From an uncultured Spartobacteria bacterium (lineage in GTDB: Bacteria; Verrucomicrobiota; Verrucomicrobiia; Chthoniobacterales; Chthoniobacteraceae): a stretch of DNA of 37,098 bases. The DNA is taken from positions 1 to 37,098 of the forward strand of contig CAIURC010000026.1 in NCBI GenBank assembly GCA_903901425.1, given 5' to 3'. The position numbers and the translations under genes are program-made. Positions 10,428 to 18,820 of this stretch are shown in pieces (the first letter of the stretch is position 1; the number at the start of each line of letters is the position of its first letter). The notes under the pieces are model-generated. The model was not told the DNA's origin. It saw only the letters and a list, made by a program, of their open reading frames with translations, and did no database searches.

Positions 10428-11186
10428 TCAGCGGCTCTGACCCGGGAAAAAGGGCAGATTGGACATCAACCAGACGCAGACCGTGTGGTTGTTCTCCCAG
10501 TTCTCGCCGCCACGCCGGTGCAGGCTTTGCTCCATGTAACCGACCTCGAGTTTCACATGGTCGGTGAGTTTGCGTCCGATGCCCGCAAACGCACGGTTCT
10601 GGTCAAAGTGATTCCCGAGAATGTTCCCCCCGAAGTTGAAGAACACCTCGTCCCAGAGAGCAAAATACGTCTTTTTGTCTTTGGTGAGGGGGATATCGCT
10701 CCGGAGCAAGTATCGGGCGCGCTGTTCGCCGCGCCAATTCGCAGTCTCGAAATCCCCATCGGTCCTCTGGCGCAGTTCCTCGATCCAGCGCTGTTCAAAC
10801 CGGACCCGGTGGGTCCAGCCGATTCCTAGCCAGTCGCCCTTGTACTGGACCTGTTCCCAGATCCGGTTCTCGTCGAAGGAATGCGCAACGGGCAACTCGC
10901 CGTAGGGATCGGTCCGGACATAAGCGTACCCTGCACTCACGCTCCAATGCGGATCGATCTGGTAGTTGATCCCGGGCCGGACGAGAAGCTGCTGCCAGTC
11001 CGCCCCCCAGTCTGAGAGCCGGTTTTGCACCTCCAAGTGCACCCCCCAAGGGCTGCTGAACAGGGGATGATCTCCCACGTAGTTCAGCCAGAGGTTGTTG
11101 TTGTCGGCCGTTGCTGCCTCCGAATGAAACCCGGTCCCGAGCAGTGCAACTCCCGCAAAAACCGACGGGATATACTTGTTTTTCAT
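10428..11186 (-). CDS. DUF2490 family outer-membrane beta-barrel protein
   Basis: A 252-residue exported protein with an N-terminal signal peptide (MKNKYIPSVFAGVALLGTGF, cleavage near HSEAATA). The mature part is rich in alternating aromatic/polar strands such as WSVSAGYAYVRTD and WTHRVRFEQRW, and ends with a strand-like segment. This is typical of DUF2490 proteins, which are predicted outer-membrane barrels of unknown function. It starts 17 nt downstream of the SulP stop and is almost certainly co-transcribed with it. A porin-like or structural role linked to anion uptake is an inference from position only. Confidence 0.82.
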   Translation of the reverse strand: MKNKYIPSVFAGVALLGTGFHSEAATADNNNLWLNYVGDHPLFSSPWGVHLEVQNRLSDWGADWQQLLVRPGINYQIDPHWSVSAGYAYVRTDPYGELPVAHSFDENRIWEQVQYKGDWLGIGWTHRVRFEQRWIEELRQRTDGDFETANWRGEQRARYLLRSDIPLTKDKKTYFALWDEVFFNFGGNILGNHFDQNRAFAGIGRKLTDHVKLEVGYMEQSLHRRGGENWENNHTVCVWLMSNLPFFPGQSR

Positions 11187-11203: not shown

Positions 11204-12832
11204 TCAGGCAGCTTTACGATTGAGGACCCGGGCTGCGAGCGGATGTTTTGATACCGGGCGGTGTTGATCAAGCCCGGCAATGATCAACTCTCGGTTCTCG
11301 AGTTTCCAGTCCTGCGCCATCTCCTCGAGTTTCTTCATCACAGTGTGGTCCACCAACCGGGCCTGCGAAAGGTCCACACGCACTACGGCGTGCTCTTTCA
11401 TCGCTAGCAACCGGCCACGCATCGAAAGCCAGTTGCTGAAGATCAACGACTTTTCCACCACCACCACAGGGTGACCATCTCCCTCTGCAGTGCTCGCCTT
11501 GGGCACAAAGAGATTCACCGGGGATGTTCCCGAAAACACGTGGATCCCCAGTTTCACCAAAATCCCCACCCCGATCCCAATCAGCAGGTCCGTAGCAAGG
11601 GTCGCAACCATGGTGGAAACAAAAACCAGCAACTGGCCCTTGCCCACCTCCCACATGTGGAAGAACTCCTTCGGCGAAGCTAGGTTGTAGCCCGTAAACA
11701 CCAGCATTCCCGCCAGAGCCGCCAGCGGGATGTTGTTCAACAACCAAGGCACACTTGCCACCAACACCAGGAGGAACGTGCCGTGCCAGAAGTTCGCCCA
11801 GCGCGTCCGCGCCCCGTTGTTCCGGTTGGCCGAAGAACGCACAATCTCCGAGATCATCGGAATCCCGCCGATGAATGACACCAGCGTGTTGGCCACCCCC
11901 ACCGCAAGAAGATCCCTGTTCAGGTTCGTCCGACGCTGCCAAGGGTCCAGCAGATCCACCGCCTTCGCGCTCAGGAGCGACTCCAGAGATCCCACCAGCG
12001 AATACATCATGATCCACTTCAGGCTCGGCCCCGAAAAAACTGCGGAAAAATCCGGGTGCCGGATGCCGCTCAACATGTTCAGAGGAAGCGCCACCAAGTT
12101 TTTTGGCCCCACCGCGTACTCCGCACCATGGAACTGGTACATGTGCTGGTGTTGGATATCGAAGGCAAAACCGAGTGGCGTTGCCACCATCAATACCAGC
12201 ATCGGCCCTGGAATCGCTTGGACCCACCGCTTTTTGATGAGCATCCGTCCAAACAGCAGCAGGAGTGAGATGGCGCCAATCAGGGCGATCTCGGGGTTGA
12301 GATTTTGCAGACTGTGCGGAATCTCCGCCAGCAATTCCAGCGGTTCCTTGGCATGCGCAGCGACTCCGAGCGCCACGTGGACCTGCTTGGAAATGATGAT
12401 CACCCCAATAGCCGCCAGCATTCCATGCACCGCTGCCACCGGAAAGAACTCCCCGAGGGTCCCCATTCGGAGAGCCCCGAAGAGGATCTGAATTGCACCC
12501 GCCACAACGCCCACCGCCAGCGCCTTCTCGTAACCAAGCTCCTGCACCGTCCCGAGCACGATCACAATCATGCCCGCCGCCGGCCCTTTGATCGTCAGCT
12601 CAGAGTTGCTCAAAAATGGGGTCAACATCCCGCCCACCACCGCGGTGAAGATCCCCGCAATCGGCGGAACCCCTGAGGCCACCGAGATCCCAAGACACAG
12701 GGGAAGCGCGATCAAAAAAACGAGAAACCCGGACAGCAAATCCTTTCCCAGGTTCCTTTGGAGCCCGGAAAAGTTACCGACGGGAACTTCCCCGGACTCC
12801 CGGGGCACTGAGGTGGTGGCGTGTGAGGACAT
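11204..12832 (-). CDS. SulP family anion transporter with STAS domain
   Basis: A 542-residue SulP/SLC26-type transporter, probably for bicarbonate or sulfate. An N-terminal soluble stretch is followed by many hydrophobic helices from about residue 32 ([21 protein letters not shown]). The family core is visible, including the [13 protein letters not shown] and [12 protein letters not shown] segments typical of TM2-TM3. The C-terminal STAS domain runs from about residue 455 to the end, with the phosphoregulatory-loop-like region [20 protein letters not shown]. It is divergent from dabA across a 177-nt spacer and shares its transcript with DUF2490. Its position beside a DAB system favours bicarbonate as substrate (BicA-like), but sulfate cannot be excluded from sequence. 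Confidence 0.9.
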
Positions 12833-13009: not shown

Positions 13010-15961
13010 ATGAGCGCCCAAAGCGAAAACCCCCACCCTACCCCCTGTCTTCCGACCGCCTCAGGAGCCGCATGCCAACACGACTCGGCTCGCCCCATCG
13101 ATCATCTGCAGCACGCGCTCAAGCATGCCGCCCATTACCTTCCCGCACAGGGCCCCATCGGCGTTTTTGTCCACCACAACACCCTTCACGCATTCCAGCA
13201 TCTCCCGTTTGATCAGGCCGTTGCGCAAGCCGCGCAACTCTTTGGTACGGAACCGTTTCTGTCCGAGGAGGCTTACCAGACCCAGCGCGCCCGCGGCCGC
13301 ATCCTCGAATCCGACATCGATGCGATCCTTGGACGGGAGCCAGACGCCCAAATTCTCCCGGGCCGACTCACCCGCAGAGGGCTGCGCCGGGCACTGCTGG
13401 TTCCGGGCGTCCGGCAGGTGAACGGGCGGAACATCGCATGGCAGATTGAGGAGGGCGGCCTTCTGGAATCGTTCCGCTCTGATCTCCCCCCTACAGCGGC
13501 TCGGGCGCTTGCCTCGGATCTCCCCGAAAACCTGTGGAACATTTGCTGCGAGCGGCTCGCCCCCTCAGTGCCGCCCTCCCCCCCCCGCGCTCCCCGGCGG
13601 CCCAGGGCGGCGCTCCTTTCCCTGCCAGAACCTCTGGACCTCGACAGCGTGGTGCACCCCCCGCTCATCCGCCTGACTGGCGCATTCCTTGACCAAGGCG
13701 TTGCCTACTGGCCCATGCCGCTCCGGGAACTCGGACTTTTGGGTGCCGTGCGCAAAATCATGGCTCAATCCGGTTCGATCAGCAGGGAGTTTTTGGACAC
13801 GGTTCCTGCCGAACTACGCCGGCAGGAAAAAGAGGGGCTCGACGCAGGAGCCACTGCTCTCCAGATGCTCGAACGTCTGGGAGTCCCCGAAGACGACTGG
13901 GAGTCCTTTCTGACGGCGGAACTCCTTGCCCTTCCGGGCTGGGCAGGAATGGTGCACTGCTTGGAAATCGATCCTGCTCTGGCCCCCCATGAAAAGGTAC
14001 ATGCATCGCTTTTGGACTTTTTGGCGTTGCGCCTCACGTACACGGTCGCTGCCCTCGAAAAGATCCTCGGCAACGCGCGGTCATGGCGCACCCTGCAGCA
14101 GTCCATCCCGGCATCTGATCCTTTGGTCCACCGAGCCCGTCTTTTCGACTCCGCTCAGTTGCTCGGACTCGACAGCCATACGCTCTTGGGACTTTCGGAT
14201 CCGGAGTTTAACACCCTCTGCACGGAACTTGAGTCCTTCAATTCCTTCGAGCGCAGGCGGGTTCTTCATCTTGCGTACGAACTGCGCCATGAACGCCAGA
14301 TCTTGATCCCGTTTTCCAAACACCTCACGAGCCCGGTCCCCAAGTCTGAAAGGCTTTCCGCACAAGTCATATTCTGCATCGACGAACGCGAGGAATCCAT
14401 CCGACGCGCCCTTGAGGAAGTGGATCCTTCAGTGGAAACCTTCGGAGCCGCGGGTTTCTTTGGATGCGCCATGGACTACGCCGGTATCGATGACCCCCGA
14501 GGGGTCTCCCTCTGCCCGGTCGTGGTCAAGCCTGCACACGCCGTCCGGGAGAAGGCGCGTAGCGAAGACACGCACCTGCACGGCAAACGTCAGGCATTGC
14601 GCCGGGCGTGGGCAACGCTGGTCCGCCACGGCAATATTTCGTCGCGAACCTTGGTGCGCGGATCCATCAGCACCGCGCTGCTCGGTTTTCTGAGCCTGTT
14701 TCCCATGGCGATCCGCCTTTTGAGCCCGCTTTCCTACGGCCGCCTCGCCCGGAAACTCAACGCGTTCTTTCTTCCTGAACCGAGGACCGAGCTTCAGTTC
14801 ATGCGGGACGACGATTCGGCACGCGAGGCGACTGCCGGGCTGATGGCCGGCTTCAGTATAGACGAAATGGCCGACCGCGTGGCCAGCGTGCTCGGCCCCA
14901 TCGGCCTAAGAACCGGGCACGCCCGCCTTGTGGCAGTGCTTGGGCACGGCAGCACCAGCCTGAACAACCCCCACGAATCCGCCTACAACTGCGGCGCATG
15001 CGGAGGACGCACAGGCGCCCCCAACGCACGTCTCTTTGCCGTGATGGCCAACCGGCCGGATGTCCGGAACGCCCTGCGCAGCCGGGGCATCCTGATTCCA
15101 GACGATGTGTGGTTCCTGGGCGGCTACCACGACACCTGCAATGACGAAGTCCAAATCTTTGATCTAGACCTGCTCCCCTCTTCGCACCGGTCCGATTTCG
15201 ACCACCTCGAAAAGGTCCTCGATACTGCGCGGGCACTCAGCGCCCATGAACGTTCCAGACGCTTTGAAGCGGCTGCCCCGTCCATTCCTCCGGAGAAAGC
15301 CCTGCGCCATGTTCAGGAACGGGCCGAACACATCAGCGAGGCCCGCCCCGAGTATGGGCACAGCACCAATGCCGCTGCATTTGTCGGACGCCGATCCAAA
15401 ACGCGGGGTCTGTTTCTGGACCGCCGCTCATTTCTCATCAGCTACGACCCCACGCTCGACCCTGAAGACCGCGCTCTGGCCGCCGTTCTCGGTGCCGTGG
15501 TTCCCGTGTGCGGGGGCATCAACCTCGAGTACTACTTCTCCACAGTGGACAACGAGGGCTACGGGTGCGGCACCAAACTTCCGCACAACATCTCAGGCCT
15601 GCTCGGCGTCATGAACGGCTATCAAGGCGACCTGCGGACCGGGCTTCCCCTGCAGACGGTGGAGATCCATGAACCCGTCCGGATCCTGTTCATCGTGGAG
15701 TCCAAACCCGAACGGGTACTCCGCGTGATCCACGCCAACGCGCTGCTCAAGGAGTTTCTTGAAAACCAGTGGATCCGCCTCGCCAGCCTCGATCCCGACA
15801 CTCAGGACATCCGAGTTTACCGCGGGGCCGGCGTGTGGGAATCCCTTTCGGGAAGCGAGGAACCTTTGCCTGTCGCCGAAAGCTCCAGGTCTTATTACTC
15901 CGGAAAAATCGACCACCTCCCTGTGGCCCGGATTGTCCCGGACCTGTCCAATGTCGCCTAA
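13010..15961 (+). CDS. dabA: DabA-type inorganic carbon accumulation subunit (DUF2309)
   Basis: A 983-residue DUF2309 protein, the soluble carbonic-anhydrase-like subunit of DAB (DabA-DabB) inorganic-carbon pumps. It is thought to turn CO2 into bicarbonate in the cytoplasm, driven by ion flow through the membrane partner. The zinc-site residues described for DabA are recognisable: Cys456 and Asp458 in VIFCIDERE, His646 in AVLGHGS and Cys661 in YNCGACGG. The His-to-Cys spacing of 15 equals that of the characterised enzyme. The N-terminal HHNTLHAFQHLPF (about residue 53) is the family's conserved HxNxL-like region. The protein appears longer than the roughly 800-residue chemoautotroph forms, with extra sequence before the first zinc ligand. 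It is followed after 12 nt by dabB. Confidence 0.95.
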   Translation: MSAQSENPHPTPCLPTASGAACQHDSARPIDHLQHALKHAAHYLPAQGPIGVFVHHNTLHAFQHLPFDQAVAQAAQLFGTEPFLSEEAYQTQRARGRILESDIDAILGREPDAQILPGRLTRRGLRRALLVPGVRQVNGRNIAWQIEEGGLLESFRSDLPPTAARALASDLPENLWNICCERLAPSVPPSPPRAPRRPRAALLSLPEPLDLDSVVHPPLIRLTGAFLDQGVAYWPMPLRELGLLGAVRKIMAQSGSISREFLDTVPAELRRQEKEGLDAGATALQMLERLGVPEDDWESFLTAELLALPGWAGMVHCLEIDPALAPHEKVHASLLDFLALRLTYTVAALEKILGNARSWRTLQQSIPASDPLVHRARLFDSAQLLGLDSHTLLGLSDPEFNTLCTELESFNSFERRRVLHLAYELRHERQILIPFSKHLTSPVPKSERLSAQVIFCIDEREESIRRALEEVDPSVETFGAAGFFGCAMDYAGIDDPRGVSLCPVVVKPAHAVREKARSEDTHLHGKRQALRRAWATLVRHGNISSRTLVRGSISTALLGFLSLFPMAIRLLSPLSYGRLARKLNAFFLPEPRTELQFMRDDDSAREATAGLMAGFSIDEMADRVASVLGPIGLRTGHARLVAVLGHGSTSLNNPHESAYNCGACGGRTGAPNARLFAVMANRPDVRNALRSRGILIPDDVWFLGGYHDTCNDEVQIFDLDLLPSSHRSDFDHLEKVLDTARALSAHERSRRFEAAAPSIPPEKALRHVQERAEHISEARPEYGHSTNAAAFVGRRSKTRGLFLDRRSFLISYDPTLDPEDRALAAVLGAVVPVCGGINLEYYFSTVDNEGYGCGTKLPHNISGLLGVMNGYQGDLRTGLPLQTVEIHEPVRILFIVESKPERVLRVIHANALLKEFLENQWIRLASLDPDTQDIRVYRGAGVWESLSGSEEPLPVAESSRSYYSGKIDHLPVARIVPDLSNVA

Positions 15962-15973
15962 CTTACTCATCCT

Positions 15974-17317
15974 GTGAACCCGCTTCTGATCGCAATTATC
16001 GCTGCACCAGCGGTCCTGTTTCTTCTGCTGGGAGCACTCTGGCTGGCCGGCTTCACCCTCCCCGAGCGGATCGTGGCCCGGCTGACAACCTCCGTGTACG
16101 CACTGCTCACTGTCGCTGTTTCGATTCTGGGATGGCGGCTTGCCCGCACCCCAGGACACTCCATCCATGCATCTCTCGGCGACTGGTTCACCGTGGGAGA
16201 TTACGGCTTCCCCATCGAACTGCTTGCAGACACGGTTTCATTCCCCCTCATCGCTGCAACCGTCATCCTCGTCGGCTTGGTGGGCTCCTTCTCCGTCCGC
16301 TACCTCCACCGGGACCCTGGCTTCCTCCGGTTTTTCCTCCTCCTCAACCTTTTTGCTTTCGGGGCACTGCTGGTCTTTGCATCAGCTTCCATGGATCTGC
16401 TGGTCGCGGGCTGGGAGTTTGTCGGGATCACCTCCGTTCTCCTGATCTCCTTCTTCCAGTACCGCCCGGAACCGGTCCGGAACGCGCTCCGGGTGTTTGC
16501 GACCTACCGCCTTGCAGACCTCTTCATCCTTCTCGCAGTCTTTCTGGCTCACCACTGGGCAGGGTCAGCCGCATGGACCGACCTGTTTGGTACCGGTGCA
16601 GTTTCCGGAGCCAAGACGGAAGTACTCGCGATCCTCCTGGTGTTTGCCGCCAGCGGAAAATCCGCCCAGGGCCCGTTCTCAGGCTGGCTGCCGCGGGCCA
16701 TGGAAGGCCCCACGCCGTCCAGCGCGGTTTTTTACGGGGCGATATCGGTGCACGCGGGCGCGTATCTGCTGCTCCGGGCAGAACCGCTGGTCCAGGGCTC
16801 GCACGTTGCACGAGGGCTCCTTTTCGCGATTGGCGGAGGAACGGCTTTAGTGAGCACGATGGTTCACCGGACCTGTGCGGATGCCAAGACGTCGCTGGCT
16901 TATGCCTCGCAGACTCAGCTGGGCATCATCTTCTGCGAGATCGCTGCCGGATGGTCCACCCTCGCACTCCTCCACATCTGCAGCCACGCGATGGTGCGCT
17001 CCATGCAGTTCCTCAGAGCTCCCTCTATGCTGTATGATCATCACCGGATTCATTCGGCGTCCGGAGGAACCCTCCAGCCCACCGGCGAACATCTCGAATC
17101 CCTGCTCCCGAAGTTTATTCAGATTTACCTCTACCGAGTGGCACTCGGCCGGGGATTTTATGACGCCATCGTCGACCGCTGGATCCTTGCCCCAGCCCGT
17201 TCGCTCGCCGGTTCGCTGCGCATTTTTGAACCCGACTGGATCCGAATCGCCCCTCAGAACATCGAGTCCAAGTCTCCCGCAGAACCCACACACACCGCCG
17301 AATCCTCTCACGCCTGA
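15974..17317 (+). CDS. dabB: DabB-type NuoL-like proton-channel subunit
   Basis: A 447-residue, multi-helix membrane protein of the Mrp-antiporter/NuoL family (PF00361), the usual membrane partner of DabA. It starts at GTG 15974, 12 nt after dabA. Key channel residues of NuoL are kept: Glu148 in AGWEFVGITS (TM5) and Lys229 in SGKSAQGPFSGWLP (TM7), followed by GPTPSSA. Also kept are the DAKTSLAYASQTQLG loop (about 303-317) and the HICSHAMVRSMQF helix (334-346). It is shorter than NuoL and lacks the later G-x-P-G-F-x-G-F-type segment; after residue 350 there is a soluble tail with LPKFIQIYLYRVALG. Proton or sodium as coupling ion cannot be decided from sequence. Confidence 0.92.
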   Translation: MNPLLIAIIAAPAVLFLLLGALWLAGFTLPERIVARLTTSVYALLTVAVSILGWRLARTPGHSIHASLGDWFTVGDYGFPIELLADTVSFPLIAATVILVGLVGSFSVRYLHRDPGFLRFFLLLNLFAFGALLVFASASMDLLVAGWEFVGITSVLLISFFQYRPEPVRNALRVFATYRLADLFILLAVFLAHHWAGSAAWTDLFGTGAVSGAKTEVLAILLVFAASGKSAQGPFSGWLPRAMEGPTPSSAVFYGAISVHAGAYLLLRAEPLVQGSHVARGLLFAIGGGTALVSTMVHRTCADAKTSLAYASQTQLGIIFCEIAAGWSTLALLHICSHAMVRSMQFLRAPSMLYDHHRIHSASGGTLQPTGEHLESLLPKFIQIYLYRVALGRGFYDAIVDRWILAPARSLAGSLRIFEPDWIRIAPQNIESKSPAEPTHTAESSHA

Positions 17318-17325
17318 GTTTTTTC

Positions 17326-18720
17326 ATGGACTCGATTCCCTTCCTTTCCCTTGGCCTCGGCACCCTTCTGGGCACCGCAGTCCTCACCCTTCGTCCGCGG
17401 AGCGGCAACCGGAAGACAGCCATCGGAGCGGTCTGCTTTGCGCTCCTGTGTTTTGCTGGTGCAGCAACCGAAGTCCTTGGACACAGCCACGCCCCCTTCG
17501 AGGATCCGTGGGTGAAAAGCCTTCGGGCCGACGTGCTCACCGTGCTGCCGATGGTGTTCTACACGGTCCTCACCCTGGTATCCCTCATACTCGCCCCGAA
17601 ACGGGACACCATGGGTGCCGCGCCGGCCGGAATGCTGCTGCTCGCAACGGGAACGGTCACCGCTTACTGCGCGGCAAGTCTTCCGCTGCTGGCTGCGGGA
17701 TGGTGGATCACTGCAGTTCCCTTTGTTTTGAACCTGTTCGGACCATCACCCGCCCGCGGCATTCACTCGCTCTTTCTGTGCACCAGCGCCGCCTTGGTGA
17801 CCGCATTCTGCATTCTCATCCACTCCAGCTCACTCGAGTCATTCTCCCGGGCAGGCTCCGTTGCATTCCTACTCGTCATTGCAGCAGTGGTGGTGCGCAA
17901 AGGGCTTTTCCCCCTCCACTCCTGGGTGGTGACTTCCTTTGAACACGGGCCGCTCATCCCTGCCGTGCTCCTTTTCAACGGGCATCTGGGGGCGCTGCTC
18001 ACGGCGAGAACCGAGGCGGTCAAACTCCCGGGTTTCGCCCACAGCGCACTGGACTGGCTTTCCATCGCCGCCCTGCTGACGGCTTTGATCTCCAGTTTCC
18101 GCGGGTTTGCCGAAAAGACACCGCGCCGCCTGCTGGCCTTTGTGTGTATCAGCCAGGCGTCCTTCATCCTTGCCGGCCTGGCCACGTGCAACCGCCAAGG
18201 CATCACCGGGGCGCTCTTGCACTGGTTTGTCGTCGCCGTGGCTTCCACCCTGCTCGCCTCAATTCTCCGCATCCTGGAAGTCCGCGTCTTGGACGTTGCC
18301 AATCCCTCTGGCCACCTCGGTCTCGCAATCCGCGCCCCGCGGCTCGCCACATTTTTTCTCATCGGCGCACTGGCCTTGATTGGTCTCCCGGGCACCCTCG
18401 GGTACAATGCCGAGGATCTCCTTTTCCACGGGGCACTGCAGAGCCATCCCTGGCTCGGGATCTGTCTGCTGGCCGCAACGGCATTCAACGCGATCAACCT
18501 TCTCCGACTCCACTCCACCCTCTTCCTTGGCGTTCTCCCGAAACACGTGCTCCACATTCCCGACGCGCTCCCGAGAGAACGCTGGCCGGCCGCGGCCTGT
18601 GTGGTCGCACTCGTAGCGGGAAGCCTGCTTTCTTCCCGCGTCCTGCCGTTCATCTCCGGTGTCACAGACGGTCTGCATCCCACCCCAACCCATCACGCAC
18701 CGAACTCCGTCGGCGACTAA
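17326..18720 (+). CDS. Second antiporter-like (NuoM/NuoN-type) subunit of the DAB operon
   Basis: A 464-residue integral membrane protein starting 8 nt after dabB, so in the same operon. It resembles the proton-pumping subunits of complex I. The TM7-region lysine motif is present (VVRKGLFPLHSWV, about residue 190, then GPLIPAVLLFNGHLGALL), as is a KTPRRLLAFVCISQASF helix boundary. So is the late ALIGLPGTLGYNAEDLLF segment that dabB's product lacks. In the place of the TM5 glutamate (GWE in NuoL) it reads LLAAGWWITAVPF, so that acid is missing. It could complete or regulate the ion path of the DabA-DabB complex. A degenerate DabB duplicate without transport function is the alternative. The family is certain enough; the exact role is not. 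Confidence 0.82.
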   Translation: MDSIPFLSLGLGTLLGTAVLTLRPRSGNRKTAIGAVCFALLCFAGAATEVLGHSHAPFEDPWVKSLRADVLTVLPMVFYTVLTLVSLILAPKRDTMGAAPAGMLLLATGTVTAYCAASLPLLAAGWWITAVPFVLNLFGPSPARGIHSLFLCTSAALVTAFCILIHSSSLESFSRAGSVAFLLVIAAVVVRKGLFPLHSWVVTSFEHGPLIPAVLLFNGHLGALLTARTEAVKLPGFAHSALDWLSIAALLTALISSFRGFAEKTPRRLLAFVCISQASFILAGLATCNRQGITGALLHWFVVAVASTLLASILRILEVRVLDVANPSGHLGLAIRAPRLATFFLIGALALIGLPGTLGYNAEDLLFHGALQSHPWLGICLLAATAFNAINLLRLHSTLFLGVLPKHVLHIPDALPRERWPAAACVVALVAGSLLSSRVLPFISGVTDGLHPTPTHHAPNSVGD

Positions 18721-18786: not shown

Positions 18787-18820
18787 AAGCGGTATCCGGA
18801 GTTCGTCCCGGATACCGCTT
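18787..18820 (-). terminator. Terminator for the minus-strand secreted-protein gene
   Basis: A perfect 13-bp stem (AAGCGGTATCCGG 18787-18799 with 18808-18820) and 8-nt loop. On the minus strand it is followed by TTTCTTTT, so it terminates the 18840-19436 gene. It lies between convergent genes and may also stop the DAB operon. A near direct repeat, AGTCGCTCCACAAG then AGTCGCTCCAAAAG, precedes it. Confidence 0.82.

Follow-up and report, generated by a model that had tools for sequence, protein, structure and literature searches.

DAB2 of Halothiobacillus neapolitanus (DabA2-DabB2, PDB 9rd0) is known from a cryo-EM structure published in 2026, in which the membrane subunit DabB2 has 15 transmembrane (TM) helices, with TM12-14 rearranged and admitting a membrane 'finger' of DabA (PMC13144422). 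Glu444 in this finger stands for Lys399/Asp400 of NuoL and is essential; the interface residue Glu144 of NuoL is lost in DabB2, where Ile151 is found; and Leu658 replaces the Gln/His of beta-carbonic anhydrases (beta-CAs) and was described as 'strictly conserved' in 150 homologues (PMC13144422). When Leu658 was changed to Gln, Gly, Ala or Asn, growth support in vivo was kept (PMC13144422). The coupling model for DAB2 rests on finger Glu444 and on TM12-15 of DabB embracing the finger, and it also stresses the loss of the TM5 Glu and the presence of Leu658 (PMC13144422).

A further arrangement was noted in 2017 in the COGNAT paper, according to which genes for NuoM (COG1008) and a sulfate permease (COG0659) are frequently found nearby when ybcC (dabA) lies upstream of a nuoL homologue (PMC5700660). 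Its authors guessed that more membrane subunits would mean more ions moved, the function not being known to them; the passages on their clade C assign no function and describe neither residues nor a DabB truncation or a structure (PMC5700660). DAB1 of H. neapolitanus (hneap_0907-0909) is likewise a three-gene DAB, its extra protein being described as a small hypothetical transmembrane protein. In NDH-1MS, a NuoL-type and a NuoM-type subunit together carry a carbonic anhydrase (CA)-like protein. This cyanobacterial complex (NdhF3-NdhD3-CupA, PDB 6tjv) is driven by ferredoxin and has the rest of complex I.

The cluster in the window and its relation to known systems

The window, that is, the whole stretch of 37,098 nucleotides analysed here, contains a tight, co-directional cluster of dabA, a short dabB and a NuoM-like gene, hereafter the third gene, as determined from the ORF list and from Pfam/NCBIfam matches. 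The initial annotation had proposed this three-gene cluster from the sequence, and the ORFs are indeed in place, encoding a PF10070 protein, a NuoL-like protein and a PF00361 protein. It had also placed the third gene 8 nt after dabB and called its product antiporter-like; the measured gap is 8 nt, and NuoM is the best NCBIfam match. The gap between dabA and dabB is 12 nt. The features of the region are the following:

10428..11186, minus strand: DUF2490 protein, in the same block as the SulP gene (PF10677, E 3.7e-51)
11204..12832, minus strand: SulP-family anion permease, 542 aa, divergent from dabA (PF00916, E 5.7e-59)
13010..15961, plus strand: dabA, 983 aa, beta-carbonic-anhydrase-like cytoplasmic subunit (PF10070, E 3.5e-232; phmmer to 9rd0_A, E 1.8e-69)
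14645..14722, plus strand: DabA membrane finger, residues about 546-571 (RTLVRGSISTALLGFLSLFPMAIRLL), with Ala556 at the place of DabA2 Glu444 and AF2 helices at DabA 518-587
15359..15361, plus strand: codon of DabA His784, aligned with DabA2 Leu658, the beta-CA Gln/His transition-state position (role of the position from PMC13144422)
15974..17317, plus strand: dabB, 447 aa, GTG start, NuoL-like TM1-11 plus C-terminal helices, no TM12-15 (PF00361/PF00662, NCBIfam NuoL, tail length, hydropathy, AF2)
16415..16417, plus strand: codon of DabB Glu148, aligned with NuoL Glu144 (TM5 ion pair near the subunit interface)
17326..18720, plus strand: third gene, 464 aa, NuoM/MrpD-like 14-TM antiporter-type subunit (PF00361, E 1.2e-22; TIGR01972 NDH_I_M, E 1.5e-23; AF2 model of the L081 homologue)
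17896..17898, plus strand: codon of third-protein Arg191, at the TM7 Lys position (motif RKG..PLHSW), Arg in 97 of 97 homologues
18412..18417, plus strand: codons of third-protein Glu363-Asp364, at the TM12 position (NuoM Glu407, NuoL Lys399-Asp400), with an acid at 363 or 364 in 95 of 96 homologues
18787..18820, no strand assigned: 14-bp inverted repeat, terminator-like, between the third gene and the convergent gene (pattern scan, consensus match only; T run on the minus strand)

The scan, which covered part of the window's ORFs, took in the immediate neighbours of the cluster, namely the SulP gene, the DUF2490 gene and one unmatched ORF. Of the 54 three-gene clusters flanked on either side by 2 kb or more, 35 had a SulP gene nearby, and its product is a possible candidate for a bicarbonate transporter. 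The DUF2490 gene adjoins the three-gene cluster in many Verrucomicrobiota loci.

The window has the PF10070 DabA with conserved Zn-site residues and the adjacent NuoL-like PF00361 subunit that characterise DAB/DAC systems. It shares with DAB2 the same Zn-site residues and a NuoL-like DabB TM1-11 with conserved cytoplasmic half-channel residues. Unlike DAB2, this class adds a NuoM-like subunit, its DabB is devoid of TM12-15, its DabA has no finger acid at the place of Glu444 and carries His at the position of Leu658, and DabB keeps the TM5 Glu where DabB2 has Ile151; four traits of the DAB2 type are thus absent from the class of the window. The gene order is dabA-dabB, whereas it is dabB-dabA in the canonical clusters examined. 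Compared by description, the extra protein of DAB1 differs from the 464-aa 14-TM NuoM-like protein found here. NDH-1MS offers a likeness in its L- plus M-type pair, but DabA belongs to PF10070, and no genes for the rest of complex I were seen in the window's cluster and its immediate neighbours scanned.

The initial annotation knew of no description of such a variant. This does not hold, because the arrangement was noted, with its function not known, in the 2017 paper (PMC5700660); going by the passages on clade C, which also combine dabA-nuoL with nearby NuoM and SulP genes, the three-gene clusters are very probably the same as that clade. What is new here is the molecular anatomy: a truncated DabB, four residue contrasts and a structural model, none of which was found described in the open-access papers searched, subscription papers and preprints being outside the scope of the search. 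We consider it fairly likely that dabA, dabB and the third gene encode a single heterotrimeric, membrane-potential-driven CO2 hydratase, a second DAB class in which the third subunit would give the periplasmic half-path.

A short DabB and a NuoM-like third protein

Three-gene DabB proteins have 86-127 residues after the TM11 His, compared with 152-204 in canonical DabB, and no sampled canonical DabB is this short after TM11, which bears out the earlier description of DabB as short. About 80-100 residues are gone after TM11, corresponding to TM12-15, and hydropathy shows no matching helices; the C-terminal helix of the short DabB matches the lateral helix (HL) region of NuoL. A missing G-x-P-G segment had been taken as the mark of the window's DabB, which did not hold: the motif G.PG..[GSN] occurs in 12 of 94 short DabB, in 4 of 28 canonical DabB and in 94 of 97 third proteins. 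Its absence was thus rejected as a DabB hallmark, the motif being rare in canonical DabB too, and the real difference is the loss of TM12-15.

All 94 three-gene DabB proteins carry the TM5 Glu, against 0 of 28 canonical ones. Its retention fits a NuoM-like neighbour, because NuoL Glu144 lies near the subunit interface. A set of odd types (L247-L253) has no finger acid in DabA and carries the TM5 Glu in DabB, and all of them but L252 are without a tight third gene; DabB is long in L247-L249, L251 and L253. Since these long-DabB types also show the TM5 Glu and no finger acid, the Glu swap is not tied to the third gene alone: as far as the sequences tell, it marks a DabB class, and it is the truncation of DabB that tracks the third gene.

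In a Prosthecobacter MAG (L081), dabB and the third gene share a single frame; with the dabB stop TGA read as Gly, they were modelled with AF2 as one fused chain, using 44 sequences. The model reached a pLDDT of 86.4 and a pTM of 0.87, with a low-confidence, disordered linker; a pTM of this size over two large halves suggests that DabB and the third protein pack in a defined way in the predicted structure. The model gives DabB 11 TM helices and, at the C terminus, two further helices. Residues 3-424 of the model matched residues 1-561 of Escherichia coli NuoL, with 400 aligned and Z 43.0 (VIA); we take NuoL TM12-15 to be skipped and the end of DabB to lie in the lateral-helix region, because only in this way do the aligned ranges fit. 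The third part folds like NuoM, with 14 TM helices of which TM7 and TM12 are broken, and matched NuoM (8e9h_M) with Z 42.2 over 457 residues and chain D of 6tjv, the NDH-1MS structure, with Z 41.9 (VIA). Overall, the NuoL/NuoM structure matches had Z of 42-44. A fusion of the window's own DabA (residues 370-983) and DabB gave a pLDDT of 81 and a pTM of 0.74, with the same NuoL match as the L081 model (AF2). The idea that the third gene is a piece split off a canonical DabB was rejected, its product having a full 14-TM NuoM-type fold and not NuoL TM12-15.

PF00361 matches the third protein only from about profile position 74-92 onward, the N-terminal half not being recognised, and the TM8 Lys is absent. 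Because of this unrecognised half and of the invariant replacement of the TM7 Lys by Arg, the third protein, as read from its sequence, probably does not form a full channel on its own. The initial annotation had envisaged a heterotrimer with two ion-path subunits; the conserved three-gene system stands, but a second full channel is less well supported. It is unlikely that the third protein is a complete second channel, with two protons (or Na+) moved by the complex in each turnover: the predicted NuoM fold with its two broken helices and the near-invariant TM12 acid would suit such a channel, as would the 2017 proposal linking membrane subunits to ion number (PMC5700660, in the passages on clade C), but the N-terminal half-channel looks degenerate in all three respects just given.

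DabA contrasts and distribution of the cluster

A quick maximum likelihood tree of 125 DabA sequences showed two deep clades (SH-aLRT 100). The canonical clade comprised 37 rows, including H. neapolitanus DabA2, while the other comprised 88 rows, with all three-gene DabA in one group (support 96) plus a few odd types, whose deep placement is unsure because of the long branches in the tree. The window DabA was compared with DAB2 (9rd0) at the sequence level, 9rd0 not being among the structure matches listed from a library that runs to 8 April 2026. Its Zn/active-site residues C456, D458, R460, H646 and C661 align with DabA2 C351/D353/R355/H524/C539, and these are invariant in 80-81 of 80-81 three-gene and in 36 of 36 canonical sequences. 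The finger segment has a D/E in 0 of 83 three-gene DabA versus 36 of 36 canonical ones (35 with Glu at the exact site), and at position 658 a His occurs in 78 of 80 three-gene DabA and in 10 of 10 related odd types versus Leu in all canonical sequences; all these residue counts represent few evolutionary events and are not independent, because the contrasts reflect few deep splits among related sequences.

A three-sequence profile of the third protein, run against one genome per species, retrieved 79 loci from Verrucomicrobiota, Acidobacteriota and Planctomycetota, with single records titled Bdellovibrionales, Myxococcales and Elusimicrobia; phylum counts from record titles are approximate, because several MAG titles look wrong. 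Titles that do not seem to suit the sequence include those of L083, L136, L104 and similar records, and one 'Bordetella parapertussis' falls among Acidobacteriota/Verrucomicrobiota rows. The order dabA-dabB-third was found in 62 of the 79 loci (55 by script and, by hand count, seven further loci whose dabB ORF extends at its start into dabA), and 11 end at the contig start. In the remaining six (L074, L091, L105, L109, L110 and L133), dabB-third is not directly preceded by an intact dabA, L091 having a dabA fragment and L133 an inverted dabA downstream. A third-gene start codon lies at most 30 nt from the dabB stop in 93 of 93 dabB-third pairs, with a 4-nt overlap in 38, the start nearest to the dabB stop having been chosen, which makes it a possible, not proven, start.

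A search with DabA only was added because the 79-locus scan had been seeded with the third protein. This unselected search detected DabA in 39 of 195 Planctomycetota genomes. Where the flanks were long enough, the third gene accompanied every cluster of the three-gene DabA clade (14 of 14), whereas in the same Planctomycetota flanks it was missing beside the canonical pairs, ordered dabB-dabA. Absence of the third gene from close relatives, which the initial annotation had named as the observation that would speak against a three-subunit system, was thus looked for and not encountered, and the system is conserved. In plasmid records, there was no match to the third protein, and DabA relatives occurred in 123 records, all below 60% identity.

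Complex formation in cells is something that we infer from sequence and models, and the third protein might instead help in assembly, play a structural part, or be an antiporter that acts independently and has no more than the operon in common with DabA and DabB. The six loci with dabB-third and no intact dabA directly upstream would be consistent with this, and so, by analogy, would mpsC of S. aureus, which lies downstream of mpsAB and is dispensable. Linkage in several phyla, co-occurrence with a truncated DabB, the TM5 Glu kept in DabB and the pTM of the fused pair all argue against it, and we regard such a role as improbable compared with membership in the heterotrimeric hydratase.

Several loci are worth recording in their own right. 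In L259 (G461 contig C267, 3-9260), the first branch in the clade of DabA without finger acid, such a DabA precedes four consecutive complex-I-type genes, for a NuoL-like (816 aa), two NuoM-like (555 and 519 aa) and an MrpD-like (486 aa) protein, in the same order as in the window. At L247, L248 and L249, dabA-dabB clusters stand in divergent pairs; their DabB is long (665 and 653 aa), and the finger acid is missing. L252 (547-5422) is a divergent three-gene cluster with a short DabB (tail of 95 aa) and a PF00361 protein, its DabA forming a long branch outside the main three-gene group. L183 (1035-5069) and L191 (1-3805) encode probable natural DabB-DabA fusions of the canonical clade (1344 and at least 1268 aa). 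One genome (L062 and G491 contig C1, 992558-1015752) holds three DAB systems in about 23 kb, two of them three-gene clusters from separate subclades and the other a canonical dabB-dabA pair. The window's own genome also has canonical-type dabA sequence, on contigs C21 and C88 (G000), very similar at their starts and one of them cut at the contig end, possibly representing one locus in two strain versions; its NuoL/M/N-like genes are on contig C8.

Proposed mechanism and significance

In the heterotrimeric hydratase that we favour, DabA would be a zinc CA-like enzyme performing the CO2 chemistry in the cytoplasm. The short DabB would correspond to a NuoL cut after TM11 and would keep the cytoplasmic half-channel (E148, R179/D182, K229, K305, H334, H338 and R342 as putative proton-carrying residues), with the NuoM-like subunit placed beside it as in complex I. 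The TM12 acid of the third subunit may then provide the periplasmic proton half-path, which in canonical DAB is formed by DabB TM12-13 together with finger Glu444 of DabA, and proton entry would drive the one-way conversion of CO2 to bicarbonate.

The direction of the chemistry we infer from the likeness to DAB2, and a reversed system, in which DabA chemistry drives ion export or Na+-bicarbonate transport takes the place of PMF-driven CO2 hydration, is very unlikely, since the Zn-site residues and the DabA family are those of DAB2, described as a PMF-driven CO2 user, even though His at the beta-CA transition-state position (versus Leu658) could permit reversible CA chemistry, ion export was proposed by the 2017 authors (PMC5700660, in the passages on clade C), MpsAB has been proposed as a Na+/bicarbonate system, and the host genome gave no RuBisCO match and two beta-CA matches. 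On the same grounds of gene content, no RuBisCO match and two beta-CA matches, it is plausible that the hydratase supplies bicarbonate to a heterotrophic host.

More tentatively, and with odds that we put somewhat short of even, these clusters could constitute a second class of vectorial carbonic anhydrase with a mechanism of its own, intermediate between two-gene DAB and NDH-1MS: a CA-like DabA on nothing more than a NuoL-NuoM-like pair. Such a class does without the essential finger Glu, the Leu658 block and the C-terminal DabB helices that DAB2 has, and its coupling would proceed via the NuoL/NuoM interface ion pair. A large clade spanning Verrucomicrobiota, Acidobacteriota and Planctomycetota departs from all four points of the DAB2 model and adds a NuoM-like subunit, and a whole branch of DAB pumps probably works otherwise than the solved DAB2. 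If functional, these systems would be a natural experiment on the coupling of ion flow to CO2 hydration, and they would allow NuoL-NuoM coupling to be studied simply, in two subunits and away from complex I.
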